A DNA stretch of 64,000 nucleotides from Paludibacter sp. 47-17. Lineage in GTDB: Bacteria > Bacteroidota > Bacteroidia > Bacteroidales > Paludibacteraceae. The DNA is taken from positions 1-64,000 of the forward strand of contig MKVT01000021.1 in NCBI GenBank assembly GCA_001898935.1. Direction: 5' to 3'. Below, one piece after another: positions 28,552 to 62,423 of this stretch (the stretch's first letter is position 1; every line of letters begins with the position of its first letter). Under the pieces are notes generated by a model, which was not told where the DNA came from, did not search any database, and worked only from the letters and a program-made list of their open reading frames with translations. The position numbers and the translations under genes are program-made.

Positions 28552-28617
28552 CAAAAATAGAGAGTCCGCCAGAAACCGACGGGACAAAATAATTCAGATT
28601 AGTGCTTTTTTTGTCCG
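28552..28617 (-). promoter_or_regulatory. Promoter of the beta-helix/SusC/SusD/PL8 operon with tandem YGNAC element
   Basis: The -7 box TATTTTTG is at 28552-28559. Half-sites on the minus strand are CGGAC (28613-28617) and TGTCC (28582-28586), starting 31 bp apart; the second ends 22 bp before the -7 box. The same layout, within 1 bp, is seen at 30336-30400, 35983-36047, 36093-36157 and 62311-62375. The second half-site takes the place of a -33 box, suggesting activator-dependent transcription. The two sites here also form an inverted repeat (GGACAAAA/TTTTGTCC). Confidence 0.6.
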
Positions 28618-28634
28618 TTTCCGATTCAAAACTC

Positions 28635-28685
28635 AAAAAAAAGGGCTGAAATGCATTCATTTTCAATGAACTACAATTCCAGCCC
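28635..28685 (-). terminator. Intrinsic terminator after the upstream beta-helix gene
   Basis: On the minus strand GGGCTG (28680-28685) pairs with CAGCCC (28643-28648) around an inner hairpin (TTCATT/AATGAA), followed by eight T (28635-28642). It lies about 30 bp after the stop of the 28717-30291 gene and just upstream of the next promoter, separating two transcription units. Confidence 0.75.
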
Positions 28686-28716
28686 GGAATAAACCCAACC
28701 TTAAAAAAACTAGTAG

Positions 28717-30291
28717 TTAACGAACAACAATTTTTTGCGTTTGTGAGGGGGTTTTTACAATGTAAATACCTTTTTCAAGTTTCACGACAACCGGCTCCGA
28801 AGCGGCTTTCACCGAGCCCATCATCGTACCTGCGATGGAATAAACTGCTACCTCCTCGCCGGCAGTCAGACCCGAAATATAAACCCGATCTCCCCCTACG
28901 GCAACCGACACCCTGTTTTCCGGCGAAGCATCCGGAGCAGTTGTGCCTTCGGGAAGTTCATATGCACCCAAATCGATGCGGGCACCTGCAATCCGGTCCA
29001 AACCAGCCAGATCGAACGTGATCGCAGCAGGGAAATAACTATTTTCGCCTGCATTCACCGCCAATGAAGCCGAACCGACTTTCCAGTTTGCCTGGGCGAT
29101 TTCGGTCAGTTTAACTGCATCGGTGGTAGCACCGGCAAACGAAGTGGGAGCAATAAAAGCAATATCCTGCCAGGCAGTGGCCGCATCGGTAAGCAGAATT
29201 GAATCGGAACCGTCGGCCCAGCTATACGACGCAACACTGGGCCATGTAGCATTGAATTTTACTTTACCGGCAGGATAACCGGCAACCACGCTGATAGCAA
29301 CCGGAGTTGTAGTAGCTTTGGCAACATTGCCCACGACAATATTATTGTACAATTCGCCGGTATTGGTAGCCGAAGCCAGGTAGATAAGACCTTCGTTGTT
29401 GGCAACGGTATTGTTTACCATGGTGCCTTTGTTCAGATATACGGTATTGTTTCCGGTATTGTTCGTGATCAGGCAATTGGTAATCGTACAACTCCCCGGA
29501 TTGTTGGTATAAATCCCCGCTCCTGCACCCGTTGAAGTATTGTTGCGGATAATCAGGCTGTTCAACGTGCTGTTGCCGGCAGCCTGCACCCGCACCCCAC
29601 CCTGTGCATTTTGTTCGATAAGTGAGTGCTCGATGAGCGATGCAAAACCCGAAGCCGGAGCGGCGTATATTCCACCGGCGGCAGGAATTGTGCCCGAGGT
29701 AGTAGTATTGTTGTATATCCGGCAATTGGAAACAATCCCCCCTACGGCATTAATCCCGCCACCGTTTCCGGTAGTCGTATTTCCGGTGACAATCGAGTTT
29801 TGTAATTTCAGGTTGGCCCGCAGCAGCACACCACCGCCGCTGTTGTTCAATTGTGTTCCCTGACCGTTACCGTTGGTAATGGTAAATCCATCGATTACAT
29901 ATACGGCCGGAAAATTGGCGGCAACTTCGATACAACGTTTGGCTGCTCCCCCATCGAGAATCGTAACATGGGTAAAATCCCACGGATCGGTTCCTCTGGC
30001 CCGTTGCGACAACTCGGTTTCGGTTCCGGCAAAACCACCGTAAAGATTCACTCCCTCTTTCATCAGAACAGGAGCGGCAGCCGTCGAGTACGTCCCGGCT
30101 TTCACCCATACATCCTGTGCTTCCGACGAGGTCGAAAAGAGTACTTGAGCAGCATTAACGGCCGATTGTATATCGCCCAGTGCATTCGACCACGACGAAC
30201 CGTCGCCGGTTCCTCCCGGAACAACATAAACTGTGGCCTCAACGCCCCCAACCAACATGATGCCTAGCACCAGGGTAATCATTTTTTTCAT
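28717..30291 (-). CDS. Secreted parallel beta-helix protein with T9SS domain, monocistronic paralogue
   Basis: A 524-residue paralogue of the adjacent 640-residue beta-helix protein. It has a signal peptide (1-19), GDGSSWSNALGDIQSAVNAA near residue 30, Asn-rich beta-helix coils (about 120-330), the closing LDRIAGARIDLGAYELPE motif near 435 and a type A T9SS domain (KGIYIVKTPSQTQK) at the end. It differs from its neighbour by a shorter helix and region-specific turns. It has its own promoter (30336-30400) and terminator (28635-28685), so it is a single-gene unit under the same putative operator. Function is unknown: adhesin, glycan-binding protein or lyase are all possible. Confidence 0.82.
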   Translation of the reverse strand: MKKMITLVLGIMLVGGVEATVYVVPGGTGDGSSWSNALGDIQSAVNAAQVLFSTSSEAQDVWVKAGTYSTAAAPVLMKEGVNLYGGFAGTETELSQRARGTDPWDFTHVTILDGGAAKRCIEVAANFPAVYVIDGFTITNGNGQGTQLNNSGGGVLLRANLKLQNSIVTGNTTTGNGGGINAVGGIVSNCRIYNNTTTSGTIPAAGGIYAAPASGFASLIEHSLIEQNAQGGVRVQAAGNSTLNSLIIRNNTSTGAGAGIYTNNPGSCTITNCLITNNTGNNTVYLNKGTMVNNTVANNEGLIYLASATNTGELYNNIVVGNVAKATTTPVAISVVAGYPAGKVKFNATWPSVASYSWADGSDSILLTDAATAWQDIAFIAPTSFAGATTDAVKLTEIAQANWKVGSASLAVNAGENSYFPAAITFDLAGLDRIAGARIDLGAYELPEGTTAPDASPENRVSVAVGGDRVYISGLTAGEEVAVYSIAGTMMGSVKAASEPVVVKLEKGIYIVKTPSQTQKIVVR

Positions 30292-30335
30292 AAAGCATTA
30301 CATTTAAAAGATTATTACTTGTGTTAATAATGCTG

Positions 30336-30400
30336 CAAATGTACATGGTATGTTTACCCCCTGAGTACAAAATCATTCGCTTTTGGCCCGATATTGTACG
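30336..30400 (-). promoter_or_regulatory. Promoter of beta-helix paralogue with tandem YGNAC element
   Basis: The -7 box TACATTTG is at 30336-30343 (minus strand). Half-sites are CGTAC (30396-30400) and TGTAC (30365-30369), starting 31 bp apart, with 21 bp between the second and the -7 box. The 13-mer CGTACAATATCGG starting at the first half-site recurs exactly, at the same distance from the -7 box, at 36093 on the plus strand. Confidence 0.68.
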
Positions 30401-30440
30401 CGAATCGTCCAATCCTCCATTAATTAACAGTTGAGTAGCG

Positions 30441-31970
30441 CTAATTCTCCGGTGCAAGATACAATCCGGCTTCGATGAGCTCTGGAGCCGCCCTGAACGC
30501 TGTAATCTTCACCCTTACTTTTTTGGACGACACTTTTTCAAAGCGAAGCAAGCGTTTGTAACCCACAGTCAGGCCTTCGGCCACTTTCATCCACCGGCCG
30601 TTCTGATAGATTTCCAGCTGAAAAGCTTCGATGCGCTGACCATTGCGTATATTTTCCTGAAGCATCAACCGGTCGAAAGTGACCGGCTTTTTAAAATGGA
30701 ATTCAATAGCGTGTTCGCTGGCGGCGGTAGTGGCTTTCCAATAACTGTGCTTATCGCCGTCGGTCAGTTTGGTTGCTTCAAAACCTCTGGCTGGTCTGAC
30801 ACTGCTCAGTTTCGCCTGCCGGGCCAGGTTCACGGCAAAGGTAGCCTCGATACGCCGGCGGAGCGCCATCAGGTGATCGATATCGTTCTCGTGAATCAAG
30901 CCCCTGCGATCGGGAGGAATGTTGAGCAACAAGGTCGAATTCATCCCGATCGAACTATAGTAAATATCTTCGAGCTGACGGGGCGATTTTACCTTATCGT
31001 CCTGCGAGGAATGATAAAACCAGCCCGGACGGATGGACGTATCGACTTCGGACGGATACCAGATGATTCCCGAGGTGCCCTTCAGTTTTTCACGACTACC
31101 CAAGTCGTTTCCGCGCGCATCTTTGGGTACAAACATATCTTGCTTTACATCCTGCTGCGAATCGGCAGCAATTTTACGCCGCGAAGCTACTTCCACCGGC
31201 AACACGCTCCATTCCGGATCGCGCCCCTTGCCCGCCTCATTTCCTACCCAGCGCACGTCGGGCCCCATAATCGCAATTACGGCACCGGGCTGAAGTTGGC
31301 GAATAAGGGCGTAATACGATTCGAAATCGTATTGCTGAACCTTACCATTCGGACCTTCTCCATTGGCACCGTCGAACCAGACTTCAAACACCTCGCCGTA
31401 GTTGGTGAGCAGTTCGGTAAGCTGGCGGCGAAACACTTCGTTGTAGGCAGGCGAATCGCCATAGGCAGGATGGTTGCGGTCCCAGGGCGATAAATACACT
31501 CCGAATTTCAGACCGGCCGCCCTGCATGCATCGGCAACTTCTTTCACCAGATCGCCTTTGCCCGAACGCCAGGGCGATTGTACCACCGAATATTCCGTCG
31601 TAGCCGTGGGCCACAAACAAAATCCATCGTGATGCTTGGCTGTGAGTATCAATCCTTTCATTCCGGCCTCCTTGAATACAGCAACCCATTGATTGGCATC
31701 AAGTCCGGTCGGATTGAACACGGCCGGATCGGTGGTGCCGTCGCCCCATTCCTTGCCTGTAAATGTATTCGGACCAAAATGAATAAATCCGTAATATTCC
31801 AGTTCCTGCCATGCCATTTGTCGTTCGGAAGGCCGCACAGCAAGTGCAGCTTCGAGCACAGCGGCATCGTCGGCTCCGTCGGGTACGGCCACATAATTTT
31901 GTGCATCCGCAACAGGAGCCATCCATCCCGTAAGCACTAAAAAAGCCAATAAAATACGTTTTGTGTTCAT
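30441..31970 (-). CDS. GH29 alpha-L-fucosidase
   Basis: A 509-residue secreted retaining fucosidase (signal peptide 1-23, ending VADAQ). The barrel carries the GH29 hallmarks YGFIHFGPNTFTGKEWGDG near residue 60, LTAKHHDGFCLWPT near 113 and the nucleophile-bearing EVWFDGANGEG near residue 200. The pattern and the C-terminal F5/8-type beta-sandwich (about 385-509) recall the GH29-B group, which acts on alpha-1,3/1,4-linked fucose; this sub-assignment is tentative. It starts 11 bp after GH20 and is third in a sulfatase-GH20-GH29 operon, pointing to stepwise trimming of a sulfated, fucosylated HexNAc glycan. Confidence 0.92.
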   Translation of the reverse strand: MNTKRILLAFLVLTGWMAPVADAQNYVAVPDGADDAAVLEAALAVRPSERQMAWQELEYYGFIHFGPNTFTGKEWGDGTTDPAVFNPTGLDANQWVAVFKEAGMKGLILTAKHHDGFCLWPTATTEYSVVQSPWRSGKGDLVKEVADACRAAGLKFGVYLSPWDRNHPAYGDSPAYNEVFRRQLTELLTNYGEVFEVWFDGANGEGPNGKVQQYDFESYYALIRQLQPGAVIAIMGPDVRWVGNEAGKGRDPEWSVLPVEVASRRKIAADSQQDVKQDMFVPKDARGNDLGSREKLKGTSGIIWYPSEVDTSIRPGWFYHSSQDDKVKSPRQLEDIYYSSIGMNSTLLLNIPPDRRGLIHENDIDHLMALRRRIEATFAVNLARQAKLSSVRPARGFEATKLTDGDKHSYWKATTAASEHAIEFHFKKPVTFDRLMLQENIRNGQRIEAFQLEIYQNGRWMKVAEGLTVGYKRLLRFEKVSSKKVRVKITAFRAAPELIEAGLYLAPEN

Positions 31971-31981
31971 GGTTCGTGTAG

Positions 31982-34324
31982 TTATTCGATAATTAATTCG
32001 TCGAGAGCTGCCCGTGTTGCAATTCCTTTGCGAAGATGAAATTCCGGCGTAATTCCCGGATTTTGAACGAGAATGCGCATAGCTTTTACCTTCCGGGCGC
32101 CCAATTCGATATAACGGGTGGTTCGGAAATGCCCTTGCTGAAAGCGTTCGGTATCCGAAAACGAATGCAGCCGTAAAGGTATAAAATTTTGCCCGTCGGT
32201 AGAAATCATGACCTGGATGGAAGCAGGGAAATGAACCCCCATTCCTGCATTGTTCAACATCCCTACTCCCAACCGGGAGATGCTGATCGTATCGGGCCAG
32301 TGAATTTCGAAGCGGGCATCGCGGTCGTATAAATCAACCCATTCTCCATCGGTCAGTTTTTCGCTGCCTCTTACTCCGTTGAGCAATACCCCGGCCATTG
32401 CTTCCGACGATACTATTTTGCTCCCTGCCGCTTTGTGGTTCAATGTATTGAGCGACAGTATCTCGCCCCTACGCTGCCCGCCGGCAAAGGTGGCGGCCCG
32501 CACCATTGTACCCGGATTTAACCATAAGGTATCGCTGTAGAGCTGCGAGCCGGGCCCGGGTTCGCTGCCATCGAGGGTATATCGAAGGTCGACGGCAGGA
32601 AGGATATTGGTGAGGGTTACTTTCAACCGGCCATTGGAAGGCACCACCCGGTGCTGAATATTGTACATCGAACGGGCATACGGAATACCCAGCCATTGAT
32701 AACGCCGAAGCATAGGATCCATGCGACGGGTAAAATCGTTCCAGTTTTTCCGGTCGGGCTGCGACCAGGCCGATTCGGCAAATGCAGCCAACCGGGGAAA
32801 AACAAGGTAATAAGCCTCTTCGGGACGGCTGACAAACTCGGTCCATAAGCAAGCCTGCACCCCCAACATCTGTTTTCCTACCGAAGACGGCAACCTTGCC
32901 GGAAGCGGCTCGTAGTTGTACACATCGTACAAGGTAGTGTTTCCAAAATACGTAAACGGCTCAAACCATTGCGGCCCCTGGTAACGTATAAAATAATAAT
33001 ACCATGCCGGACTCTTTATATAGTTAAATCCCTGCTCTCCAGCTGTTTCTGCCCCCGACCCATCGGCTCTCCAGCCCACAATCACGGCTTTTTCGGGTAT
33101 CCTGCTGTCGACCAGTTCGTCCCAGCCTATCAACCTGCGATCGTTCTGTAGCAAGAAACGGTTAATACGCCCGATGAAATAGCTCTGCAATTCTTCCTCA
33201 TCAGGAATAGCATGCTCTTTCATTCTGGCCTGACATAACGCACATTGCTTCCAATGCGTTTTTATAGCTTCATCGCCTCCGATATGGATGTATTTCGAAG
33301 GAAATATGTCCATCACTTCGCCGAGAACATCTTCCAGAAAAGTAAACACCGAATCGTTGCCCGCACAATAAATCACGGCGGCCTGCGTTCCGCCGCCTCC
33401 CGGCAGCACCCCGGGTATCTGCTCCACTACCGGGCAAGCCAGGTGGGGATAGGCTGCCAGCGACGAATTGGTATGTGCCGGCATTTCGATCTCGGGAATC
33501 ACTTCAATCTGATGACGGGCTGCAAAAGCTACGATTTCGCGCATATCTTCCTGCGTATAATATCCCCCTTTTACAGCCGACTCGCCCGCTTCGGGGTTGG
33601 CGCGCAAAGGGAAGGAATTGATCCGGTCGACCCGCCAGGCACCGGTATCGGTAAGACGCGGATATTTTTTAATTTCAATCCGCCATCCATTATCGTCGAC
33701 CAGATGTAAATGCAACACATTTATTTTGTGCATGGCCAGGTAACCGATGAGTTTCAACACCTCCTGTTTAGGCATAAAATACCGGGCTACATCGAGCATA
33801 AAGCCACGATATCCAAACCGGGGAGCATCGTCGATGCTCACTCCGGGAACTTTTATTTTCAGGGGTTTAACCGCCCTGTACAAACCTTGGGTCGCCGACT
33901 CATCGAAGGCATACACCGTATCGGGCATCAATTGAAACAGGGTTTGGAGTGCATAATAAAATCCGCGTCGGGTAGAGGCTTCGATGCGGATCGATTGCGT
34001 TGAAACAGCGAGCCGGTAACCCTCTTCGCACAAGCCCGGATCGTAGGTCATTTGTACCGAATTTCGGGCGGGTTTACCCTTCAGCCGTATGCGCAGGGGT
34101 AATCCGCTTGCCCGTTGAAGCTGGTCGATAAAAGGCTGAGCTACACGGAGCACCGTTGAATCGGCGATATTCCAGTGGGTCGAACGGTTGAATTCGAATG
34201 CTTCGGAAGTGTACCGGAGCTGTGCCGGTTGCGGAATAAGCTGTGCCCTTACCGTATCGGCACCAAACAGCATGAGCAGGGCCGCCAGCAAGCTGTACAG
34301 CAAACGCTTTGATTTACAAATCAT
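31982..34324 (-). CDS. GH20 beta-N-acetylhexosaminidase
   Basis: A 780-residue secreted exo-enzyme removing terminal beta-GlcNAc or beta-GalNAc by substrate-assisted catalysis. The signal peptide ends near residue 27 (VRAQ). The GH20b domain (about 30-150) precedes the barrel; KYIHIGGDEAIKTHWKQC near residue 350 holds the catalytic Asp-Glu pair. After the barrel come a chitobiase C-terminal-like strand pattern (YTLDGSEPGPGSQLY near 590) and an F5/8-type sandwich (about 640-780). It is encoded 22 bp after the sulfatase stop, so desulfation probably precedes its action. Linkage and choice of sugar cannot be set from sequence. Confidence 0.94.
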   Translation of the reverse strand: MICKSKRLLYSLLAALLMLFGADTVRAQLIPQPAQLRYTSEAFEFNRSTHWNIADSTVLRVAQPFIDQLQRASGLPLRIRLKGKPARNSVQMTYDPGLCEEGYRLAVSTQSIRIEASTRRGFYYALQTLFQLMPDTVYAFDESATQGLYRAVKPLKIKVPGVSIDDAPRFGYRGFMLDVARYFMPKQEVLKLIGYLAMHKINVLHLHLVDDNGWRIEIKKYPRLTDTGAWRVDRINSFPLRANPEAGESAVKGGYYTQEDMREIVAFAARHQIEVIPEIEMPAHTNSSLAAYPHLACPVVEQIPGVLPGGGGTQAAVIYCAGNDSVFTFLEDVLGEVMDIFPSKYIHIGGDEAIKTHWKQCALCQARMKEHAIPDEEELQSYFIGRINRFLLQNDRRLIGWDELVDSRIPEKAVIVGWRADGSGAETAGEQGFNYIKSPAWYYYFIRYQGPQWFEPFTYFGNTTLYDVYNYEPLPARLPSSVGKQMLGVQACLWTEFVSRPEEAYYLVFPRLAAFAESAWSQPDRKNWNDFTRRMDPMLRRYQWLGIPYARSMYNIQHRVVPSNGRLKVTLTNILPAVDLRYTLDGSEPGPGSQLYSDTLWLNPGTMVRAATFAGGQRRGEILSLNTLNHKAAGSKIVSSEAMAGVLLNGVRGSEKLTDGEWVDLYDRDARFEIHWPDTISISRLGVGMLNNAGMGVHFPASIQVMISTDGQNFIPLRLHSFSDTERFQQGHFRTTRYIELGARKVKAMRILVQNPGITPEFHLRKGIATRAALDELIIE

Positions 34325-34346
34325 TATAAATTGTAGTATGTGATTA

Positions 34347-35933: not shown

Positions 35934-35982
35934 TTCATGAATGATAATGGGTTAACCTGCACAATTTACTTCTGTTGAATTG

Positions 35983-36047
35983 CAAATTTAAGCTTATTAT
36001 TCGAAATTCATGTTTGAAATTGTATTTTCTGTGTACAATTTTATCCA
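35983..36047 (-). promoter_or_regulatory. Promoter of the sulfatase-GH20-GH29 operon with tandem element
   Basis: The -7 box TAAATTTG is at 35983-35990 (minus strand), about 50 bp before the sulfatase ATG. Half-sites in the expected places are TGGAT (36043-36047) and CAAAC (36012-36016), 31 bp apart and 21 bp before the -7 box. They are the most degenerate of the set. This 259-bp intergenic region also holds the divergent promoter of the 36193 gene. Confidence 0.55.
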
Positions 36048-36092
36048 AATGCGACACATAACTAAATAATTTTAATTTCATTCCCGTCAATT

Positions 36093-36157
36093 CGTACAAT
36101 ATCGGACAAAGCAAGAACGAAATCGAACATCAATTCGGCAGGATCTGCTTACATTTG
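36093..36157 (+). promoter_or_regulatory. Promoter of the T9SS protein/GH18/SusCD locus with tandem YGNAC element
   Basis: The -7 box TACATTTG is at 36150-36157. Half-sites are CGTAC (36093-36097) and CGAAC (36124-36128), with direct-repeat context AATTCGTACAAT and AAATCGAACATC. Spacing is identical to that at 30336-30400. The leader to the ATG at 36193 would be about 29 nt. Confidence 0.68.
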
Positions 36158-36192
36158 TGGCATCAAATTTTCAACTTTAATTCAGTGTACTT

Positions 36193-37299
36193 ATGAAATC
36201 AAAAACATTACTGCTTTTAGCTGCTTTTGCAGGTATGCAATTCACGGCTGTTGCCGAAGAAGACATCACTCCTTCACGTTATTTGTTTTCGGAACAGGCG
36301 GTAGGCCGTTTTACCGTGAACGCGACGAATGCCGGCGCCAATCCTCCGGCAGGATGGACCGTCCCTGTCGAGAATTTCAACAATGGTTTTTTGGTATTGG
36401 CGGGCGGACCGGCCGTATTTACAGGTCTCGAAGCGGCACAGCCGGCAGCCATCCAGGAAGGCCTTAATATTGTCGATTTGGGCGGAACAATAGGAAAAGT
36501 ACTGGTACTGCGCGGCAAGAGCTCGGCATACAGTGCAGGCACGGCGATGGGAGCCGGTTACAACGGAGCCTGGTTCAATATGAATTTTTACGCCGACAAA
36601 ACCAAAACTCCCACCATTAAGCAATTTGTGGACGAAGGCATGACTACGGCCGAGGCTACTAAAAAAGCAACCGTAAGGGTACGGTTGGTATTTTCAATTG
36701 CCGAAAACACCATCAGCAATACCGGCTCGTTTCTCGGTAAATTCTATACCTCCAATGCCCAGAACAACACCTCGCCAAGCGACTTCAACGCGCACTCTCC
36801 GTTTCCGAGCGATGCGTTTCAGGCCACCGACGAATATGGCGATCCGCTCCCAAACGACGAAGGAGAAGCCTATTACGACCCCACGAAATGGATGTTGTAC
36901 GAATTCGACACCACCGTGCCCGAACCAGCCGGATTACCCAATCGGTTGAAAATAGAACTGACCGCCACAACTGGCAACGGAACCTTACTGATCAAGGAAC
37001 TTCGCTTTATAAAAGAACCTACGGGCGACCCTGTGACCCGTAAAATGGAAACGTATACTCCCGGCACTACCGGCTTAAACTTTCTGAAATCGCTTTCGGA
37101 AGAACTGCAGCTGGCTGTCGATGGCCATGCGGTGCAACTGCTGAATGTGGCTGCCGGAAGTCCTGTGAATGTATACGACGCTACCGGTCGCGCGGTTAAA
37201 AATTTTATCGCCGAAAGCGATAACGATCGTTTTGAGTTAGCTACAGGACTGTATATAATTCGTTCGGGACGAATGAGTGCAAAAATTTCCGTACGATAG
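36193..37299 (+). CDS. Unknown secreted protein with T9SS sorting domain
   Basis: A 368-residue protein that I do not recognise. It has a signal peptide (1-21, ending AVA), a central region of about 250 residues rich in Gly, Asn and Thr with alternating hydrophobic strands (likely beta-sandwich), and a type A T9SS C-terminal domain from about residue 295 (ATGLYIIRSGRMSAK). There are no cysteines and no catalytic motif that I can name. The strand pattern with a closing KELRFIKEP stretch near 275 resembles the jelly-roll carbohydrate-binding modules that follow glycoside hydrolases, so a secreted glycan-binding role is possible. It is first after the tandem-element promoter and precedes the GH18 gene by 130 bp. 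Confidence 0.75.
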   Translation: MKSKTLLLLAAFAGMQFTAVAEEDITPSRYLFSEQAVGRFTVNATNAGANPPAGWTVPVENFNNGFLVLAGGPAVFTGLEAAQPAAIQEGLNIVDLGGTIGKVLVLRGKSSAYSAGTAMGAGYNGAWFNMNFYADKTKTPTIKQFVDEGMTTAEATKKATVRVRLVFSIAENTISNTGSFLGKFYTSNAQNNTSPSDFNAHSPFPSDAFQATDEYGDPLPNDEGEAYYDPTKWMLYEFDTTVPEPAGLPNRLKIELTATTGNGTLLIKELRFIKEPTGDPVTRKMETYTPGTTGLNFLKSLSEELQLAVDGHAVQLLNVAAGSPVNVYDATGRAVKNFIAESDNDRFELATGLYIIRSGRMSAKISVR

Positions 37300-37311
37300 G
37301 TAAAGGTCCAA

Positions 37312-37347
37312 CCACCGGAGACAGCGCCACACACCTGTTTCCGGTGG
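37312..37347 (+). terminator. Hairpin downstream of the T9SS protein gene, possible weak terminator
   Basis: CCACCGG (37312-37318) and CCGGTGG (37341-37347) form a perfect 7-bp stem with a 22-nt loop, 13 bp after the stop at 37299. No T-run follows, so it could instead be a processing or stabilising structure between the 36193 gene and the GH18 gene. Confidence 0.35.
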
Positions 37348-37429
37348 TATTTACAACCTTCGTGGCGCCCCCTTCCATCACTGCCGGCTCCTCGCGATTG
37401 CCGGATTGTTCACTACAAATTTTTACCAA

Positions 37430-39982: not shown

Positions 39983-40043
39983 ATACAAACAGCTCCCCGG
40001 CAGGGATTGAAGACGAGTCACTACCGGGGAAAAACAACAGGAT

Positions 40044-40529
40044 ATGAGAAGAATTCTAATTTCAGGATTGCTGGCAGCGCTTATTGTATTCAGCAGCTGC
40101 GAACAGGAACCCGTCAATCCGGGCGATTTCACCTTGCAACCCACACTGGAGGTGGTCCAGATAACAGACACCTCGGGCACGAATTATCCGTTCGCCATTC
40201 AACGTAGTATCGACACTACCTATCGATCGGGGAAAAAAGGGAAATACATCGAACTCGACACGATTTTACTAAACGCCGCCCGCGGCGAAATTCAGATCCG
40301 CGTGGCCACCAATGCCCGCTGGCTGGCCCCCATCCCCGATTTCCAGGGCAAAATCGCCTGGTTGCAGACGCAGATCAGCTCGGGAGCCGGCGACGGTATT
40401 ATCAAGGCGCGACTGAGCCCCGGTCTGGCAAAAGCACGCCGGCCTATCCTGGCCAACCAGTACATTTACACCCGCGACAGCCTGGTAATGTACCGTGTCA
40501 TTTTCAATCAAAAAGCACAAAACGAATAA
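40044..40529 (+). CDS. Small lipoprotein, BACON-like fold suspected
   Basis: A 161-residue lipoprotein (lipobox FSSC, Cys19) between the GH18 gene (61 bp before) and SusC (12 bp after). After a short linker it shows a strand pattern ending in ATNARWLAP and then SSGAGDGIIKARLS, which resembles the Trp and Ser/Gly-rich turns of BACON domains, a module common in Bacteroidota glycan-binding proteins. It is much smaller than usual SusE/SGBP proteins and precedes rather than follows SusC/SusD, so it is an unusual accessory surface protein. I infer glycan or SusC interaction from position only. Confidence 0.65.
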   Translation: MRRILISGLLAALIVFSSCEQEPVNPGDFTLQPTLEVVQITDTSGTNYPFAIQRSIDTTYRSGKKGKYIELDTILLNAARGEIQIRVATNARWLAPIPDFQGKIAWLQTQISSGAGDGIIKARLSPGLAKARRPILANQYIYTRDSLVMYRVIFNQKAQNE

Positions 40530-40541
40530 TTTGAATCTATC

Positions 40542-43745: not shown

Positions 43746-43764
43746 TTAATCAATGCATTTACCC

Positions 43765-45663
43765 ATGAAGAAAATCTTCTATAGCATAGTTACCCTGCTG
43801 GTAACCGGACTGAGTGCCTGCGACGATTTCATGCAGCGCGAACCCCTGGATTTTACCGACGACAAGGCCTATTTTCATACGGCCAACGATTTGATGATTT
43901 ACGTGAACACCTTTTACACCCTGCTGCCGGGCATGAACTCCGGAGGTTGGGGTGGCGTATATGCCGACGACAACAACAGCGACAACCAGGCTGGTCCTTC
44001 GGCTAATCCGTTGTTCTACAAGGGCGATAAATACACGCCCCTGGTACGCGATTCGCACTGGAAATTCGACAATATCCGGAATCTGAACTATTTTATTCTG
44101 AAGATTAAGGACAAGCAGGCCGCAGGATCCATTGCCGGAACAAGCGAATACATACAGCATTACCTGGGAGAAGCGTATTTCTTTAAGGCCTGGGAATATT
44201 TCAGGTTATTGAGCAACCTGGGCGACGCCCCTATCCTGGAGGCCGTGCCTTCGGAAAATTACGACGAACTGGTGGCCCTCAGCCGGCGGGCTCCCCGCAA
44301 CGAAGTGGCGCGATACATACTCCAATTGCTCGATACATCGGCCGGCCTGCTCATGCCCGCCATTCCGCAGAGCGGACGCATCACCCGCGATGCAGCTTTG
44401 TTGCTCAAAGCAAGGGTGGCCCTGTTCGAAGCTACCTGGCTGAAATACCATCAGGGTACGGCCTTTACTCCGGGAAATGCTAAATGGCCGGGTGCAAGCA
44501 CTTATCCCGACTTTAAATTCGCAGGCGGCTCCATCGCTTCCGAATACAACTACTTTTTCGAACAAGCCATCGCCGCCGCCGATTCGGTGGCCTCGCGCCG
44601 GCCTCTCTACCCCGATTACCCTTCGCTCTTCAACGATACAAAAGGTACCGCGGCAGGAGCTCCTGAAGTGATATTAGCCCGTTATTATCTGCAGGGAATC
44701 AATGGTCATTCGGCATCGCATTACCTCTACCGTACCGGAGCCGGAACCGGCTACACCCGCTCCATGGTAGAAAGTTTCCTTACCACCAACGGCTTGCCCG
44801 TGTATGCCGATGCAACTTACAAAGGCGATACAGCCATGTACGACATGCTTCAAAACCGCGACTACCGACTTACTTCGTCGGTAAAAACAGGCGGCTTACG
44901 CGTGGAAGGCGCCGATACCGTATTGAATTACAAACCGCAAATCTGGTCGGCCGGAAATCAGGGAACGCCCACCGGCTACGAAGTACGGAAATGGATCAGC
45001 ACCGAAACGGGCCAGGAAGCCAATCCCACGGCCGGAACCAGCGCCACCCCGGTATTACGGTCGGCCGAAGCTTACCTGATTTACCTCGAAGCCTGGTACG
45101 AACGCTACGGCGCCCTGAACAGCAAATGCGACGAGTACTGGAGAGCCTTGCGCCGCAGGGCAAAAATCAACGAAGAGTATACGGCTACGATAGCAGCAAC
45201 CGTGTTAAGCTCCGAAAACGATTTGGCAACCCATTCCCGATCGGCATGGGTCGACGCTACCCTGTACAACATACGCCGCGAACGCCGCAACGAATTCATT
45301 GCCGAAGGTATGCGACTGATGGATTTACGCCGCTGGCGCGCCCTCGACCACATGATCAATTACCAGACCGAAGGATTCAATCTCTGGGCATCGGTGTTCA
45401 AACTGTACAGCTCCGATCAGATCAGTGTCGGCCAAACCGTTTCGTCGCCCACGCTCAGCACCTACCTGCGTCCCTATCAGAAGCAGGCCAGCTCCATCGT
45501 ATACGACGGATACAGTTTCCCCAAACAACATTACCTCGAACCCCTACCGGTAAGCGAATTGGTAATGACGGCCATCGACGGAAAACCCTCGACGATTTAC
45601 CAGAATCCGGGCTGGCCAGCAAAAATTGCAGGACCGGCAGATTATACGTTTGATTGCGACTGA
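43765..45663 (+). CDS. susD: SusD/RagB-family glycan-binding lipoprotein (GH18 locus)
   Basis: A protein of about 632 residues with lipobox Cys19 (GLSAC) when started at 43765; an ATG four codons earlier (43753) is also possible. SusD features are REPLDFTDDKAYF after the anchor, the YLGEAYFFKAWEYFRLL helix pair near residue 140 and the C-terminal RRNEFIAEGMRLMDLRRW signature near 510. Its C-terminal codons overlap the opposing hybrid regulator gene by 22 bp. It is the substrate-capture partner of the SusC 19 bp upstream; the ligand is presumably a product of the GH18 enzyme. Confidence 0.94.
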   Translation: MKKIFYSIVTLLVTGLSACDDFMQREPLDFTDDKAYFHTANDLMIYVNTFYTLLPGMNSGGWGGVYADDNNSDNQAGPSANPLFYKGDKYTPLVRDSHWKFDNIRNLNYFILKIKDKQAAGSIAGTSEYIQHYLGEAYFFKAWEYFRLLSNLGDAPILEAVPSENYDELVALSRRAPRNEVARYILQLLDTSAGLLMPAIPQSGRITRDAALLLKARVALFEATWLKYHQGTAFTPGNAKWPGASTYPDFKFAGGSIASEYNYFFEQAIAAADSVASRRPLYPDYPSLFNDTKGTAAGAPEVILARYYLQGINGHSASHYLYRTGAGTGYTRSMVESFLTTNGLPVYADATYKGDTAMYDMLQNRDYRLTSSVKTGGLRVEGADTVLNYKPQIWSAGNQGTPTGYEVRKWISTETGQEANPTAGTSATPVLRSAEAYLIYLEAWYERYGALNSKCDEYWRALRRRAKINEEYTATIAATVLSSENDLATHSRSAWVDATLYNIRRERRNEFIAEGMRLMDLRRWRALDHMINYQTEGFNLWASVFKLYSSDQISVGQTVSSPTLSTYLRPYQKQASSIVYDGYSFPKQHYLEPLPVSELVMTAIDGKPSTIYQNPGWPAKIAGPADYTFDCD

Positions 45664-48600
45664 CCCAGATCGTCGCGCCATTTTGTGGGCGATTTACCTG
45701 CAACCGATTTAAATACCGTACTGAAATAGCGTTGATTCTGGAATCCCAGTTTCAACGCTATTTCCTGTACGGACATACTGGTATCGCTCAGCAATACCAT
45801 AGCCTTCTTCATCTTATAATCAATCACAAAATTATTGGCACTCATGCCGGTAATGGTTTTCACCTTCGAATAAAAACTGGTTCGGCTCATAGCCATTTCC
45901 GCCGCCAGACCATCCATGCGTATCTCCGACTCTTCCATCGAAGCATCGATCAACTGCGTGAGCTTGGCCAGGAACTTTTCGTCGGCATTGCTAAACGCAA
46001 TATCCCTGGTGCTGATGGCCGAGGCTCCCGCGTACTGCCGGCGGAGCAACTCCCGCGTACGAAGCACATTGGCCATGATGGCAAGTAATAAATCGACTCC
46101 GAAAGGCTTCGACAAATACACATCGGCTCCCATCTTGTAGCCCGTGAGCGAACTGTCGCTGTCGCCCAGTGCCGTGAGCAATACCACAGGGATATGACTC
46201 ACCTTCACATCGGTCTTGATCCGCCGGCACAATTCAAAACCATCCATCACCGGCATCATCACGTCGCTCACAACCAAATCGGGCGTAAAATCATATACTT
46301 TCTGCAACGCTTCGTCGCCCTGGGCAGCAGTGATCACCTTGTAAAACGAACCGGCCAGACTTTCTTTCATATAACGAAGCAAATCGGGCTCATCTTCGAC
46401 CAGCAACACGGTCATACGGTTAAATTCGTCGACCGGCAACTGAACGGCCCCCTCGCCTGCTTCACGCACCGTGCGGCTGGCCTTGAGCTCGTCAAAACTT
46501 TCGGGACTGATGGACTGAACCGGCTCGACCGGCAACTCGAACCAGAAAACCGAACCCTGCGGTACGGCCGGCGTATATCCGATGGTTCCCCCGTGTAATT
46601 CGACCTGCGCCCGGGCATACGAAAGACCGATGCCCGTACCTCCTTTCTGATGCGATGCCTGATAAAAACGGGTAAACAAACGAGATGTTTCCCCGGGGGC
46701 AACTCCGGGACCCTGATCTTCAACCGACACCCGGATACGGTCGCCCAACCATTTCGTTGCCACAGTAATCACCATCCCCTCTTCCGAAAACTTCAGCGCA
46801 TTCATCATCAGATTCATCACCACCTTTTCGCACCGGTCGCGATCGAGATTGAGAGACTCCACCTGCGTATCGGGAGCAAACACGATACGCATTCCCCTTG
46901 CAGTAGCTTCGGGTACAAAATCGTCGGTGAGCTGTTGCAGGCATTCGTTCATATTCACCGGTCTCCGGTTCAGCGCCACATCCTGCGTCATCTCCATCTT
47001 CCTTACATCCAGCACCATATCAATCATATTCTTCATATTTTTCACATGCTTGTACATCAATGCAAGCAATGGCCTGAGCCACTCCGGTGTCTGCTCATCG
47101 TGCACCAGGCGGCGCAAAGGAGCGTAAACCAGGGTAAGCGGAGTACGTAATTCGTGCGAAATATTAATCAGAAAACGGATTTTCTGTTCCGAAAGCGCAT
47201 TCTCGCGGTGCTGCATCTCCAACTCCATCTGTTGCCGGGCCCGTTTAATCGCCTGGTGTCGATACCGCCACAACACGGCAGCCATTGCCACCGTAAGCAA
47301 CATATAAAACCACCAGGTTTTCCACCAGGGAGCCAGCACCCTGATCGACACCAGCTCTACCGCCTCGCTCCATTGCTCGTGCTGCAGTTCATACTGTAGC
47401 AACAGCTTATAAGTACCCGAAGGAAGGGTCTGAAGATTAATGACCTGGTTGTCGAGCAACTGCCAGTTTTCGCTCAGCGATTCGAGCCGGTAGCGTACTA
47501 CCGGCGAACTGGCCAGCGTCGGTGTGTTTACAAATAAATTCAGTTGCACCGAAGTATGATTCCAGGGAAGAGTAACGAGCGGGCGGTTGTTTTTCAACTT
47601 CCTTCGCTCGGGCGAAAGCAAACTGCCATCCAATTGAATATCGAGCAATTCGAATTCGGGCACCACTGCATTGGGAAACGGGATGGCCCGGTCGATATGC
47701 ACAAAGCCCGAAACTCCGCCAAGGTAAATATCGCCCGATCGGCCTACCAATCTCGACTTTGGCAAGTACTCGTCGGGACGAATACCATCGGCACGGCCAT
47801 ATTCGTACGCTTGCTTTTTCAGTAAATGATACCGGTACAAACGGGTGCCGGAACTGAACCATACCGACGATTGACGGTCGGCCACTATCGAGCTTACTGT
47901 TTTGATCTCACCCGACATAAGCTGTTCCGCTTTTCCGCTCCGCGTATCCATACGGAACAAACCCTTACTCATCCCCAACCACAAAGACCCGCTTTTATCG
48001 AACGTAGCAGCATTGATACTGCCTGCCCCTAAATCGGCGGCATCGACAAAACAACGCACAGATCCGGTGTCAGTGTAATAACCATATACACACCGGCCGG
48101 TAACTATATAAAGCAAATGGGGTGTAACCGACGAAAACTCTACTTTTACACCTCCTTCGCCGGGCTTAACCACAGGCAATTTAACTATGTTCCCGGTCGA
48201 TGGGGTATACTCGTATACTGCTTCATCGGCGATATACACTTTGTCGCCGCTACGAGCCATGCTGATACCAATCCAGTCGCTCATAAACAAAGGCGTGCCG
48301 TCATCGGCATGCAACGGGAAAGCTTTCAGGCTTCCGGTTTGTTTGTCGAACAGGTGAAGCCCGTCTTTGTATAAACTAACCAGTAATTCGCGTTCGCTCC
48401 ACTTGGTGATGGCCGTAACCTTCGTACCAAACGTCGACGGGAAATGCCGGAACTGTTGCGTCACCGGATCGAAACGATTAATTCCCTGACCGTCGGTACC
48501 AATCCAGAGTTCACGGTTCGATGCTTCATAAAAACTCAACACCGTAGGTTCGCTCAATCCCAGACTGCTGTTGAGGGGCGCTCGCCCATAGGTATTCACG

Positions 48601-57009: not shown

Positions 57010-58221
57010 TTAACACATTTCACCCAACACTTTGCCGAAGCGAGCCAATCCTCCAAGGGCAGTTTCCTTATACAAACTGGGTAAATCATGCCCCGTTGTA
57101 CGCATGGTTTCCACCACTTTATCGAAACTGATAATGTGTTTGCCATCGGTCATCATGGCTGCCATATTAGCATCCAGCGCCCTCAACGCTCCGAACGAGT
57201 TGCGTTCGATGCACGGAATCTGAACCAGTCCGCACACCGGATCGCAGGTTAACCCCAGGTGATGCTCCAACCCCATCTCGGCGGCATATTCAATTTGCTG
57301 AGGCGAACCGCCGAACATCTGGTTGGCTGCTGCCGCCGCCATGGCACAGGCGGTACCTACTTCACCCTGACAGCCCACCTCGGCCCCCGAAATAGAAGCG
57401 TTTTTCCGGGTGATATTTCCAAACAACCCGGCAGTGGCCAGCGCCTGTAGTATATTTTTATCGGAAAATTCGTGGTACGTCTTCATATGGTACAAGATAG
57501 CCGGCAAAACTCCCGCGGCGCCACAGGTAGGCGCGGTAACCACCTCGCCCCCGCTCGCATTCTGTTCCGAAACAGCCAGTGCATACGACATAATCAGACA
57601 ACGGTTTTGCAAACTCACCTTGTAACTTTTCGCCTTTATCCAGTACGAGGCCGCCTTCCGGCGAAGGTTTAAACCGCCCGGTAACACTCCGTCGTTTTCC
57701 AGGCCCTCTTTCACCGATTTTTGCATCGCGCGCCATACCTCATTCATATAATCCCATAAATCCGGTTCTTCCCGCTCCTGTATGTATTCCCAGTAGGTTT
57801 TCCCCCGCCGCTCGATCCAATGTAAAATATCGGTAATCGACTCGTGTTCGTACACTTGTTTTTCGTTCAGATCGGTAGTATCGTCAATTATTTTTCCTCC
57901 ACCCACACTGTACACCACCCATTCGGCCATCACCTGCCCGGCACGGTTCAGCGCTTCCAGCTTTAAGGCGTTCGGATGCATCGGCAAGTAAATCTCGGGC
58001 ATCCATAAAAACTCAACCGCTTTCGGACGAAAAGCATCGGTAATAGCGGTATCGGTGAAGTGGCCTTTGCCTGTTGCGGCCAGACTTCCGTACAAATGCA
58101 CACGAAACGAGACTGCTTCGGGATGGCGCTCGTTGAAAAGCTGTGCTGCTTTTTTGGGGCCCATCGTATGACTGCTCGACGGACCGTTACCTATCCGGTA
58201 AATTGATTTTATACTCTCCAT
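57010..58221 (-). CDS. sdaA: L-serine dehydratase (iron-sulfur type)
   Basis: A 403-residue single-chain L-serine ammonia-lyase, converting serine to pyruvate and ammonia with a [4Fe-4S] cluster. The beta domain at the N-terminus has RIGNGPSSSHTMGP near residue 10. The alpha domain contains the cluster-binding cysteines, visible in TAPTCGAAG near 230, AEVGCQGEVGTAC near 280 and LTCDPVCGLVQIPC near 335. The length fits the fused one-gene form. It lies 18 bp after the second hybrid regulator, so it may share that transcript, although its reaction has no obvious link to glycan breakdown. Confidence 0.94.
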   Translation of the reverse strand: MESIKSIYRIGNGPSSSHTMGPKKAAQLFNERHPEAVSFRVHLYGSLAATGKGHFTDTAITDAFRPKAVEFLWMPEIYLPMHPNALKLEALNRAGQVMAEWVVYSVGGGKIIDDTTDLNEKQVYEHESITDILHWIERRGKTYWEYIQEREEPDLWDYMNEVWRAMQKSVKEGLENDGVLPGGLNLRRKAASYWIKAKSYKVSLQNRCLIMSYALAVSEQNASGGEVVTAPTCGAAGVLPAILYHMKTYHEFSDKNILQALATAGLFGNITRKNASISGAEVGCQGEVGTACAMAAAAANQMFGGSPQQIEYAAEMGLEHHLGLTCDPVCGLVQIPCIERNSFGALRALDANMAAMMTDGKHIISFDKVVETMRTTGHDLPSLYKETALGGLARFGKVLGEMC

Positions 58222-58239
58222 GTCGCGTTTTTTCTGATT

Positions 58240-61200
58240 TCAATTTGTATCTTCTTCCTCCTCCAAAGATACTACATTTTCGTCGGATTTACGAAATTCG
58301 GAAGGCGACATTCCAAAATGTTCTTTAAAACACTTGGCAAAATATTTGGGCGAACTGAATCCCATCATATACGTAATCTCCGATATATTGTATTCCGGAT
58401 GATCGGTAAGGTAACTTGCCGCCTTTTTCAACCGTACGTTCAGGATAAAATCGTTGGGGGTCTGTCCCGTTATTCCTTTTATCTTCGAGAACAACTTGGT
58501 ACGGCCCAGTGCCATCTCCCTCGAAAATGCCTGAACATCGAATTCGCTGTCGTCGATATGCGATTCGATGACTTGCTGAGCCTTTTCAAGAAACTCCCTG
58601 TCGAGCTGGTTGGTAGCCAGCAACCGGGGCGAAAAATCGGTTTGCCTGCTAAACTTCTCCTGCAGCATCTTCCGGTTGTTGATCAGATTGTTACAACGGG
58701 TAATCAGTGTTTTAACATTGAAGGGCTTGGTAATATAATCATCGGCTCCCAGCCGTAATCCTTCGATCGTGTATTCCACCGCGGTTTGTGCTGTAAGCAA
58801 TACCACCGGAATATGGCTGACCTGGAAATTATTCTTGATTTTCGAACACAACTCGCTGCCCGACATCCGGGGCATCATCAAATCGCTGAGTACCAGGTCG
58901 GGCTGATGTTCCAGTACTTTTTCCAGACCTTCCTCGCCGTCGCCGGCTACAAACACATCGTATACCGGTTCGAAAAGCTGCTGCAACATCAACCGTAATT
59001 CTTCATTATCTTCCACAACCAGTATCCGTGGCCGGTCGTGACGGTGCGCCAACTGCGTTTCCTTCATTTCGGCAATAAAGTCTTTATCGAGCGGCTCGAA
59101 CACATTCATACACAATTCGTCGGCGGTTGCCGGAAGAGCTGCCTTTTGATCGTCAGTGAAATGCGCCGATCCTTTACGGAGTATTACCCGGAACACCGAC
59201 CCTTCGTTCACCGTGCTGCTTACTTCGATACGGGCATGGTGCGCATCGAGTATATTACGCGACAATGCCAGCCCTATACCGGTGCCCGGAGTCATACCAT
59301 TGGTGTTCAATCCGTTTTCGGCCTGGTAAAAACGATCGAAAATTTTATCGATCGCCGATGCCTCTATGCCCGATCCGGTATCGATCACGTCCACCGTCAC
59401 CGTTGCGGCATCTTCGTAACACCGGATGGTGATGGCTCCGTCGCGCTGAGTATACTTGAATGCATTGGAAATCAGGTTGAAAAACACTTTCTGCAGTTGG
59501 TTGGCGTCATACCAGAGCTTCACCTCGTCCTGAATGCCTTCAAAACCGAACCGGATGGAACGATAGCTTGCATATTCGGCAAAGGATAAATACATTTCGT
59601 ATAAAAAAGCCATAAAATCCCGTTCCGATACTTTCATCTGCAAATGTCCCTGTTCGCTTTTCCGGAACTCCAACAGCTCTGTAATCAGATTCTGCATATT
59701 GTTGGTATTTCGCTTGATATTCAATATCCGGTTATACACTGTGGGCTGTATGCCCTGCATTTGCAGCAGCATATCGACCTGTCCGTTGATAAGCGTCAGC
59801 GGTGTACGGAATTCGTGGGATATATTGGTGAAAAACTTCAGTTTCGACTGATTCACTTCCTCAATATGATGCTTTTCACGCTGTTCGAGCTCCAAGGAAG
59901 CCTTCAGCAAAAGCTTTGACCGAACAAACAGAATATACCTCCAGATCAGAAACGCCAGCGTCAAAATGTAAAAAAGATAGGCATACCATGCTTTGTAAAA
60001 CGGAGGATCGACTTTCAGGTGTAAACTGGTGCGGGCCACCACCGAACGGTCCTGTGCCGACAGGGCTTCCAACGTCAGATCGTAACTTCCGGCTGCCAGT
60101 CCCATGAAGTTTAAGCTGGTAGTACCTCGCGGCAGCTCGGTCCATTGATCCGTCAAACCCCGGAGTTTATACCGGTAGATGGGCTGGTTCACGGCAATGT
60201 AATTGTTCGACGCGAATTCCAGGGTAACCATCGTATGCCGGTGGGTCAATGTGATGGAATTCGTAAACGGCAAGGCCTGATGCAACACACCTGTTTCATC
60301 GCCCGGATGAACCAACTGGTTATTAACCCATAGCTGAACCAGGTTGATATTAAAAGGCCGGTCGGGTATCGTGAGGTTTTGTTCCTGAAACGAAACCATG
60401 CCGTTCATGCCGGCTACAAATATTTCGCCGGTCGACAGCGAGTGCATCCCTCCGTTGAACAACGAATTCAACGGAAATCCGTTCTGACGATCATAGTTGG
60501 TGGTGGTACGGGTCTCGGCATCGAGAATCGACAGCCCCTGCGTGGTCGCAATAAAAATATATCCGTACGGCGACTCCATCATATTACTTATATAATCGTT
60601 GCGCAGACCGGTATTCAGCGAGTTAAAGCGCCGAAAACGCCCGGTAGCTTTATCGAACAGATTCAACCCTCCTCCGTTGGTAGCTACCCAGAGCCGCCCT
60701 TTACTGTCCTTCAACAACTTGGTAATACTGTTGTTGCTCAAACTAAGTGTATCGCCGGGCTCATGCATATACGACTTCAATTGCTCGTTTTTCAGGTTGT
60801 AACTCCAGAGTCCCGTCCCGCCTATCCACAACACATCGCCATCGAGTTTCAGATCGACCGAATAGCTGACGTACCTGTGCAGCTTTTCCGAAAGCAGCCT
60901 TACCGCTCCGGTCGACGGATTGAAAACAAAAATACCATTGTAGGTACCCACCAGCAAATCGTTGCCGTAAGGCACTATCGACCGTACGATATTCGACTGT
61001 TCGAGGGTGGCATCTAACACCGGAAAACGGCGCAGCCTCCCCGACGACGGATAAAACAGGCTGATACCGCCCAGGTGCGTACCTAAATACAAAATATCCT
61101 TCGTTTTATCATAATAGGCTGTCTTTATATTGTCGGACGTGAGCCCGTGAGGCTGAATACGATAATTGGTGTAGAGCCGCGTCGACGGCCGGTACCAGAT

Positions 61201-62283
61201 CAGTCCTTCACCTTCGGTGCATAAAAACAAACCGCCCCGGTTGTCTTCATGTATATCGCTGATGACCGGGAACGCTTTGTTTAAAAACGATCCCTTCCGC
61301 AAATCATGAAAAGTATAAAAATCGATTTCCGGATTGAAAAAATTCACCCCTCCAAAATAAGTCCCTATCCAGATAGTACCCTGGATATCTTTGTAAAGCG
61401 ACCATACCGACTCGTTGGACAACTGCTGCATCCGCTGGCTACCGGCTTCATAATGCTCGAAAACCTCCTGGTCGATCAACATCTTATCGAGTCCCTTTCG
61501 GGTCCCTATCCACAACACGTCGTTGTTGTCCTGCGTAATCGCCCGCACAAACGACGACGAAATACTGTTCGACGAATGCGAGGTATCGGGCATATAATTG
61601 CGGATGCGGCCACCCCGTTCGATACGGAAAAGCCCGTTGTACCAGGTACCTATCCAGATGTTTTTACGCGAATCCTCCAGGATCGACGAAACCTGGCTAC
61701 CCACATCGATCACTTTTCGCATTTTCTTGTTGGGATCGACAATGTATACCCCGCTGTTGAGCGTCCCGATGACCAGCTGCTTCTGACTCGTTTCCCGTAA
61801 AATCCGAATTTGCGACGAGCTTTCGGGTAACTCGGCATATATTTTTTTTACTCCGTCCCGGTACTCGAAAACCGTGTTACGCTCGGCAATCCATAAACAA
61901 GAGGTGCCATATGCAACGGCGTCGGCATTTTCGCGTTGTATATTCACCAGTCGTCCGGTACGTAAATCGTATCGATTGATTCCCCCCTGGCTGTGTATAA
62001 ATACGGATCCCGACTTGTCGCCGCAAATATTGCGAATCAAACTGCCGTGCAACGAATTGGTATCGTTGGGTACCGGCCGTATCACCTCCATCGAATTACC
62101 ATTGTACCGGCTCACTCCTTCGCGCGTCCCAAACCACATGGCACCCAGCTCATCCTGGTAAATCGTCATGACCGACAATTGCGACAAACCTTCTTCGATC
62201 CCGATTTTTGAGAAATAGACATCGTCGGCAGCGGCCGTCACCATCGAAAAGATAAAAAGTACAAAGAACCAGATTCGCTTCAT
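58240..62283 (-). CDS. Hybrid two-component system regulator, copy 2
   Basis: A protein of 1347 residues with the same plan as copy 1: signal/membrane segment (1-18), periplasmic propeller repeats from GLSQLSVMTIYQD and MWFGTREGVSRYNG, a Y_Y_Y domain (about 680-750), membrane helix near 775, histidine kinase with NISHEFRTPL (His near 823), ATPase domain with TGIGLALSRNILDA, receiver with SDLMMPRMSG (Asp near 1134) and a C-terminal AraC-type HTH (ISEITYMMGFSSPKYFAKCF). The start at 62283 is preferred because its promoter -7 box overlaps the in-frame ATG at 62313. Its promoter carries the tandem YGNAC element, suggesting self-regulation or cross-regulation. Confidence 0.94.
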   Translation of the reverse strand: MKRIWFFVLFIFSMVTAAADDVYFSKIGIEEGLSQLSVMTIYQDELGAMWFGTREGVSRYNGNSMEVIRPVPNDTNSLHGSLIRNICGDKSGSVFIHSQGGINRYDLRTGRLVNIQRENADAVAYGTSCLWIAERNTVFEYRDGVKKIYAELPESSSQIRILRETSQKQLVIGTLNSGVYIVDPNKKMRKVIDVGSQVSSILEDSRKNIWIGTWYNGLFRIERGGRIRNYMPDTSHSSNSISSSFVRAITQDNNDVLWIGTRKGLDKMLIDQEVFEHYEAGSQRMQQLSNESVWSLYKDIQGTIWIGTYFGGVNFFNPEIDFYTFHDLRKGSFLNKAFPVISDIHEDNRGGLFLCTEGEGLIWYRPSTRLYTNYRIQPHGLTSDNIKTAYYDKTKDILYLGTHLGGISLFYPSSGRLRRFPVLDATLEQSNIVRSIVPYGNDLLVGTYNGIFVFNPSTGAVRLLSEKLHRYVSYSVDLKLDGDVLWIGGTGLWSYNLKNEQLKSYMHEPGDTLSLSNNSITKLLKDSKGRLWVATNGGGLNLFDKATGRFRRFNSLNTGLRNDYISNMMESPYGYIFIATTQGLSILDAETRTTTNYDRQNGFPLNSLFNGGMHSLSTGEIFVAGMNGMVSFQEQNLTIPDRPFNINLVQLWVNNQLVHPGDETGVLHQALPFTNSITLTHRHTMVTLEFASNNYIAVNQPIYRYKLRGLTDQWTELPRGTTSLNFMGLAAGSYDLTLEALSAQDRSVVARTSLHLKVDPPFYKAWYAYLFYILTLAFLIWRYILFVRSKLLLKASLELEQREKHHIEEVNQSKLKFFTNISHEFRTPLTLINGQVDMLLQMQGIQPTVYNRILNIKRNTNNMQNLITELLEFRKSEQGHLQMKVSERDFMAFLYEMYLSFAEYASYRSIRFGFEGIQDEVKLWYDANQLQKVFFNLISNAFKYTQRDGAITIRCYEDAATVTVDVIDTGSGIEASAIDKIFDRFYQAENGLNTNGMTPGTGIGLALSRNILDAHHARIEVSSTVNEGSVFRVILRKGSAHFTDDQKAALPATADELCMNVFEPLDKDFIAEMKETQLAHRHDRPRILVVEDNEELRLMLQQLFEPVYDVFVAGDGEEGLEKVLEHQPDLVLSDLMMPRMSGSELCSKIKNNFQVSHIPVVLLTAQTAVEYTIEGLRLGADDYITKPFNVKTLITRCNNLINNRKMLQEKFSRQTDFSPRLLATNQLDREFLEKAQQVIESHIDDSEFDVQAFSREMALGRTKLFSKIKGITGQTPNDFILNVRLKKAASYLTDHPEYNISEITYMMGFSSPKYFAKCFKEHFGMSPSEFRKSDENVVSLEEEEDTN

Positions 62284-62310
62284 CGGTGTTATATGTATTA
62301 AATTATTTTT

Positions 62311-62375
62311 CAAAAATACACAATTCCGGTTGAGTTCGATTCCGTTATCGTCCGAAAAATGAATAATTTTGTACG
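62311..62375 (-). promoter_or_regulatory. Promoter of hybrid regulator 2 with tandem YGNAC element
   Basis: The -7 box TATTTTTG is at 62311-62318 (minus strand). Half-sites are CGTAC (62371-62375, in TTTTCGCGTACAAAAT) and CGGAA (62340-62344), 31 bp apart, the second 21 bp before the -7 box. The 11-mer TTCGCGTACAA is shared with the 30336-30400 promoter at the same distance. Confidence 0.6.
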
Positions 62376-62423
62376 CGAAAAGACTTTTTTGACCTGACTG
62401 CGAAAATAAATTAAAATATTTAG

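Follow-up and report, generated by a model that had tools for sequence, protein, structure and literature searches.

A paired 16-bp promoter element in a glycan locus of Paludibacter sp. 47-17, a probable operator of the hybrid two-component regulator HTCS2

Five promoters in the window, i.e. the whole 64,000-nt stretch of DNA that was analysed, each carry two 16-bp boxes (about YGNACAATWTYRNNC), arranged head-to-tail with a period of 21 bp when read along transcription. The second box starts 36-37 bp and ends 20-21 bp before the -7 box TAnnTTTG in 5/5 sites, so that the downstream box overlaps the -33/-35 region of the predicted promoters, in agreement with the -33 position given to the second half-site by a first-pass annotation of this DNA. 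On the basis of sequence comparison, the element is very likely the operator of HTCS2, a hybrid regulator encoded in the same locus, which would activate the glycan operons in AraC-like fashion over -33. A sixth promoter probably shares the element, and these promoters are taken to serve the breakdown of sulfated glycans.

The gene content of the window, according to gene and domain annotation, corresponds to a glycan locus of the Bacteroidota type. Its enzymes comprise three PL8 lyases, a GH88-family protein, two GH20 proteins, GH29 and GH18; additionally, a heparinase II/III-like protein, two sulfatases, two SusC/SusD pairs and two hybrid two-component regulators (HTCS1 and HTCS2) are encoded. 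The sites lie upstream of susCD and other glycan operons and near an HTCS gene, as expected of HTCS operators. The regulators and the sites, with the genes that they are predicted to drive, are given below.

58240..62283, minus strand: HTCS2, hybrid two-component regulator with AraC domain, the proposed binder (probable start at the ATG at 62283)
45642..49679, minus strand: HTCS1, the other hybrid regulator, disfavoured as binder
36093-36108 and 36114..36129, plus strand: box 1 (CGTACAATATCGGACA) and box 2 (AGAACGAAATCGAACA) of the 36093 site
36150-36157, plus strand: -7 box TACATTTG of the 36093 site, driving hyp368-GH18-SusC2-SusD2
36011..36047, minus strand: 35983 site, with box 1 at 36032-36047, box 2 at 36011-36026 and -7 box at 35983-35990, driving sulfatase-GH20-GH29
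30364..30400, minus strand: 30336 site, with box 1 at 30385-30400, box 2 at 30364-30379 and -7 box at 30336-30343, driving a beta-helix protein gene
28581..28617, minus strand: 28552 site, with box 1 at 28602-28617, box 2 at 28581-28596 and -7 box at 28552-28559, driving the hyp640-SusC1-SusD1-PL8-GH88 operon
62339..62375, minus strand: 62311 site, with box 1 at 62360-62375, box 2 at 62339-62354 and -7 box at 62311-62318, driving HTCS2 itself
56949..56986, minus strand: sixth site, with box 1 at 56971-56986 and box 2 at 56949-56964 (spacing 22), upstream of a heparinase-family gene and a sulfatase gene
56921-56928, minus strand: -7-like TACTTTTA of the sixth site, in place of TAnnTTTG

The first-pass annotation had described the five promoters as carrying YGNAC-like half-sites that start 31 bp apart, the second ending 21-22 bp before TAnnTTTG. 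The sites and both distances were reproduced, but the repeat unit was not: in the pooled self-similarity of box 1 against later positions, 37/80 was obtained at 21 bp, compared with 29 at 10, 27 at 11, 26 at 19 and 24 at 31, and because the peak falls at 21 bp, the unit is taken as a 16-bp box repeated at that period. The 31-bp tandem reading was rejected on these values; the 31-bp distance (10+21) arises when the first element of box 1 is paired with the second one of box 2. Departures from YGNAC were found as annotated at 35983 (both half-sites) and 62311 (the second), of one base each, and also at 28552 (TGTCC, one base off), where none had been listed. The HTCS2 gene had been placed under the same element, and the 62311 site does lie at its promoter. 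Spacing between the boxes is 21 bp in 5/5 of these sites and 22 in the sixth, and in relatives 14/23 sites have 21 and 9/23 have 22. The sixth case, annotated as weaker at 56921-56986, held by sequence with a score of 18.1 under the window matrix although outside its training set, but its -7 box did not, since the heparinase-family promoter has the non-canonical TACTTTTA. The HTCS2 promoter has a third, weaker box (62381-62396), which precedes box 1 by 21 bp and gives a pair score of 13.6.

That the similarity arose by chance, or from the base composition of A+T-rich promoters, is scarcely credible. When each of the five sites was left out of the matrix in turn and ranked among the 127,970 window positions, ranks of 2, 4, 4, 5 and 23 were obtained, and the weak 28552, which ranks 23rd when taken alone, would speak for chance. 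The matrix scan outlined in the first-pass annotation was run on 813,727 bases (the window and 42 stretches), i.e. 19% of 4,182,621, with the -7 box demanded 56-59 bp from box 1 and the leave-one-out score of 28552 (7.5) as floor. From the 674 exact TAnnTTTG boxes in this scanned DNA, only the five sites passed, all in this locus, which argues against chance, as does the recurrence of the element in the same register in other species. In the scanned 19%, the window matrix reached at best 21.2 beyond the window, out of register, and the one match above 12 in a permitted register (L075, 14.7) lies inside a predicted gene. None of the 30 best window matches is located at the core-gene promoters that had been described as lacking the element. 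The exact 13-mer CGTACAATATCGG, previously noted as common to two promoters, has four exact copies in the whole genome. The promoter copies, one on each strand, each lie 57 bp from -7; the remaining two are inside long open frames of contig C8. A chance explanation may also point to a mild 21-bp excess at the 664 other -7 boxes of this genome, where 16-bp self-similarity in register gave the largest row sum at spacing 21 (172, others 43 to 135); perhaps these are traces of other hybrid-regulator sites. At the same boxes only a small rise is seen at 36-38 bp (9 each vs 3 to 8 elsewhere), and for that reason no general rule for other regulators is claimed.

The box pair is likely, not proved, to be a direct repeat, because the single box is itself near-palindromic. 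Position-weighted scoring of box 2 with the box-1 matrix favoured the forward over the reversed orientation in 22/23 of the relatives' sites and 6/6 window sites, and the raw identity of the relatives' boxes also favours the direct orientation (0.530 vs 0.386 inverted). An inverted-repeat reading was tried, and it is backed by the raw identity of box 1 and box 2 at the five window sites (inverted 0.575, direct 0.463) but opposed by the position-weighted scoring; in the window, boxes of the same site are no more alike than boxes of different sites (control 8.45/16 vs 7.40). The near-palindromic box and the inverted identity would suit another, stand-alone regulator, activator or repressor, that reads the boxes possibly as an inverted repeat. 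Such a regulator is most improbable, considering the preference for direct repeats at nearly all of the relatives' sites and the fit of period and target genes to hybrid-regulator operators as published in the available text of PMC3878776.

Other genomes of the genus, the family and the order contain HTCS2 orthologs (56-64% identity). In the comparison with related genomes, which had also been outlined beforehand, the element recurred in eleven genomes with HTCS2 orthologs, at promoters of related loci and at the same distance from -7. The relatives' loci, all from genomes with an HTCS2 ortholog, amounted to 448,152 bases, and among the 142 non-overlapping matches scoring >10, TAnnTTTG was located 35-38 or 45-49 bp from the box 2 start in 27, compared with 1.7% of random intergenic positions, 1/64 matches in own DNA outside the window (367,735 bases) and 4/71 matches in control loci chosen for paralogs or for the sulfatase. 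Two of these four control matches, in G201 and G424 (48% HTCS2 relative), are at genes 29-31% identical to window proteins, and the others are one at a 39% HTCS gene and a weak one (10.2). The recorded -7 distances (n=32) were 36 or 37 in 19 cases and 46-48 in 7. Upstream regions of labelled orthologs exceeded score 10 in 11/28 cases vs 14/113 of the others (P = 0.002), a moderate enrichment only, and several of the unlabelled matches fall within the same loci. The hyp368 orthologs of G014 and G029 have kept the 36093 site (scores 34.4 and 23.8), and in both the distance between box 1 and -7 is exactly 57 bp. The sulfatase site was not found at the sulfatase gene of G014 that matches best, and in G029 no in-register site was found upstream of the sulfatase gene cluster.

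From the 27 in-register matches, 23 sites of eleven genomes were combined into a relatives' matrix, and four matches were left out, namely L057:14725 (overlapping a gene end), the reverse-strand L097, and two under score 12. This matrix ranked the six window sites 1, 2, 3, 4, 7 and 8 of 863,470 positions (weakest 19.1), a result that is only partly independent and partly circular, as its sites were found with the window matrix, with 56921 in neither training set. Beyond the window, its best score in the scanned 19% was 20.5, out of register, and the one in-register match (L149, 15.6) scored below the weakest window site. The element is conserved alongside the orthologous HTCS in relatives, with gaps at HTCS2 promoters: 7/15 of the HTCS2-like relatives (>=47% identity, i.e. 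at least that value, with readable upstream DNA) had no in-register site at their own promoter, two further orthologs having been set aside from this count for too little upstream DNA. One regulon under an AraC-domain hybrid regulator, as originally suggested, is supported by the confinement to the locus in the scanned 19%, the fixed -7 register and the recurrence in relatives.

Since HTCS1 is encoded in the same locus, it may be asked whether HTCS1, alone or with HTCS2, binds the element, as closely related hybrid regulators can share sites; shared motifs were proposed for the pairs BT4111/BT4124 and BT4178/BT4182 in the available text of PMC3878776. HTCS1 has matches at E <= 1e-200 in 5/60 genomes, i.e. 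its own, G014 (48%), G029 (54%), and G003 and G006 (34-35%), and it is in G014 and G029, where the identity of HTCS1 is 48-54%, that the 36093 site has its two best copies among the relatives. Against HTCS1 stand the in-register sites in seven genomes that have HTCS2 and no HTCS1 match at that threshold (G002, G004, G010, G019, G021, G023 and G037), although the absence is weak evidence for G010 (75% complete) and for G004 and G019 (87%). Moreover, HTCS2 orthologs have a well-conserved first helix-turn-helix, from which those of HTCS1 and its G014 ortholog differ. The exclusion of HTCS1 is weakened by its presence in both G014 and G029 and by the incomplete genomes, and a role of HTCS1 is considered unlikely. 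HTCS2 is the likely activator, because the element recurs with HTCS2 orthologs, including those in the seven genomes without a close HTCS1.

HTCS2 comprises in a single chain a propeller sensor with Y_Y_Y (22.2 bits, under the Pfam cut-off of 26.6), HisKA, HATPase_c, a receiver and an AraC helix-turn-helix, which fits the HTCS architecture. Its best solved-structure matches were 4a2l (residues 14-775, E 7.1e-94) and 12aw (1093-1344, E 2.1e-61), of which 4a2l, the solved structure nearest to the sensor, is presumably the heparin sensor BT4663. We infer that HTCS2 binds the element and thereby activates transcription, with a glycosaminoglycan fragment as its ligand. In the proposed mechanism, a glycan fragment would be sensed in the periplasm and HTCS2 would phosphorylate its own receiver domain, after which its AraC-type domains would occupy the 16-bp boxes side by side, the offset of 21-22 bp, or two helical turns, placing both domains on the same face of the DNA. 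Covering the -33 region, the box nearer to -7 could aid or replace the sigma contact there, and the degradation operons would be activated as AraC does from araI1-I2, with HTCS2 acting on its own gene as well in this genome. At araBAD I1-I2, AraC occupies two direct half-sites that repeat every 21 bp, and the downstream half-site overlaps the -35 region; AraC is, however, a soluble arabinose sensor at a sigma-70 promoter, as opposed to the membrane hybrid kinase and the Bacteroidota-type -7 box of the present locus.

Two distances from -7 were distinguished among the relatives' sites scoring >=12, i.e. at least 12. At HTCS promoters, the site was far (46-48) in 6/7, and at other genes near (36-37) in 19/20 (P = 1.6e-4), with gene assignment being loose for a few sites, where the next gene lies far away or outside the stretch. 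The near exception at an HTCS gene is a 39% paralog (G065), and the far exception at another gene is the dropped L057:14725 match. A far site was present at the own promoter of HTCS2 in six relatives and, weaker, in a seventh, G037 (9.0), G002 having a weak near site (10.0), whereas the HTCS2 promoter of the window has its site in the near (enzyme) register, at 36. The shift is about one helical turn, and the protein would therefore face the same side of the DNA. It is possible, though we hold this tentatively, that HTCS2 operators come in two fixed registers that differ by one helical turn, 36-37 at degradation operons and 46-48 at its own promoter. If so, one protein would have two modes, a strong activation of enzyme genes and a weaker or different mode on itself, and the pattern poses the concrete question of how one hybrid regulator treats its targets as compared with itself. 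The two-register pattern was not found in print in a limited literature search.

For 16 hybrid regulators of Bacteroides thetaiotaomicron, motifs built as direct repeats, on average 21 bp apart, were predicted in 2013 (Ravcheev et al. 2013, PMC3878776). Because such repeats of about 21 bp are published for Bacteroides hybrid regulators, the element would belong to a known operator type, as a further example with a promoter register sharper than described in the available text of that paper, in which a fixed operator distance to -7 was not found. Common to both are the two-box direct repeat and the prediction that a single regulator serves several operons of its locus; the spacing here can be 21 or 22 bp, unlike in the accessible description of the Bacteroides operators. 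The HTCS_Man group of the same paper has 16-bp boxes with a 5-bp spacer, a layout that the present element resembles. In the available part of PMC3878776, BT3334 is named HTCS_Hya (chondroitin sulfate and hyaluronan) and BT4663 HTCS_Hep. Fragments of BT0366, BT4124 and BT4663 bind promoter DNA according to the accessible portions of PMC5061871 and PMC11253607, the BT0366 fragment shifting the promoter of its operon and the region adjoining its own gene (PMC5061871), and ChIP-seq was done with BT0366 (PMC3404733, available text). BT0366 is an arabinan HTCS, thus with another substrate, and in those portions of PMC5061871 and PMC3404733 the evidence is experimental, whereas it is prediction here. 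The -7/-33 consensus is quoted in PMC7366714, and beside it, in the available text, a regulator register was not found.

The element provides an exact candidate promoter grammar for one hybrid regulator across several related genera, consisting of a 16-bp box, a 21-22 bp period, 36-37 bp, and TAnnTTTG. The sequence could then tell which operons belong, and a single promoter could serve to test the spacing rules in a large regulator class.

The first gene of the GH18-SusCD operon, hyp368 (36193-37299), had only a sub-threshold match, to a secretion tail. Its counterparts in G029 and G014 are 56-61% identical, and at E <= 1e-30 it was matched in 1/393 genomes of the order, its own. The listed start of HTCS2 (TTG at 62313) overlaps the -7 box (62281-62318 region), and the true start is probably the ATG at 62283. 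An L-serine ammonia-lyase gene (57010-58221; TIGR00720, 405 bits vs cut-off 345) directly follows HTCS2 on the same strand, and may therefore be under the HTCS2 promoter too. Divergent from HTCS2 is an APH-family (PF01636) phosphotransferase gene (62476-63558), which stays near HTCS2 in relatives, adjacent to it in G037 (68% identity) and one gene away in G029 (73%).
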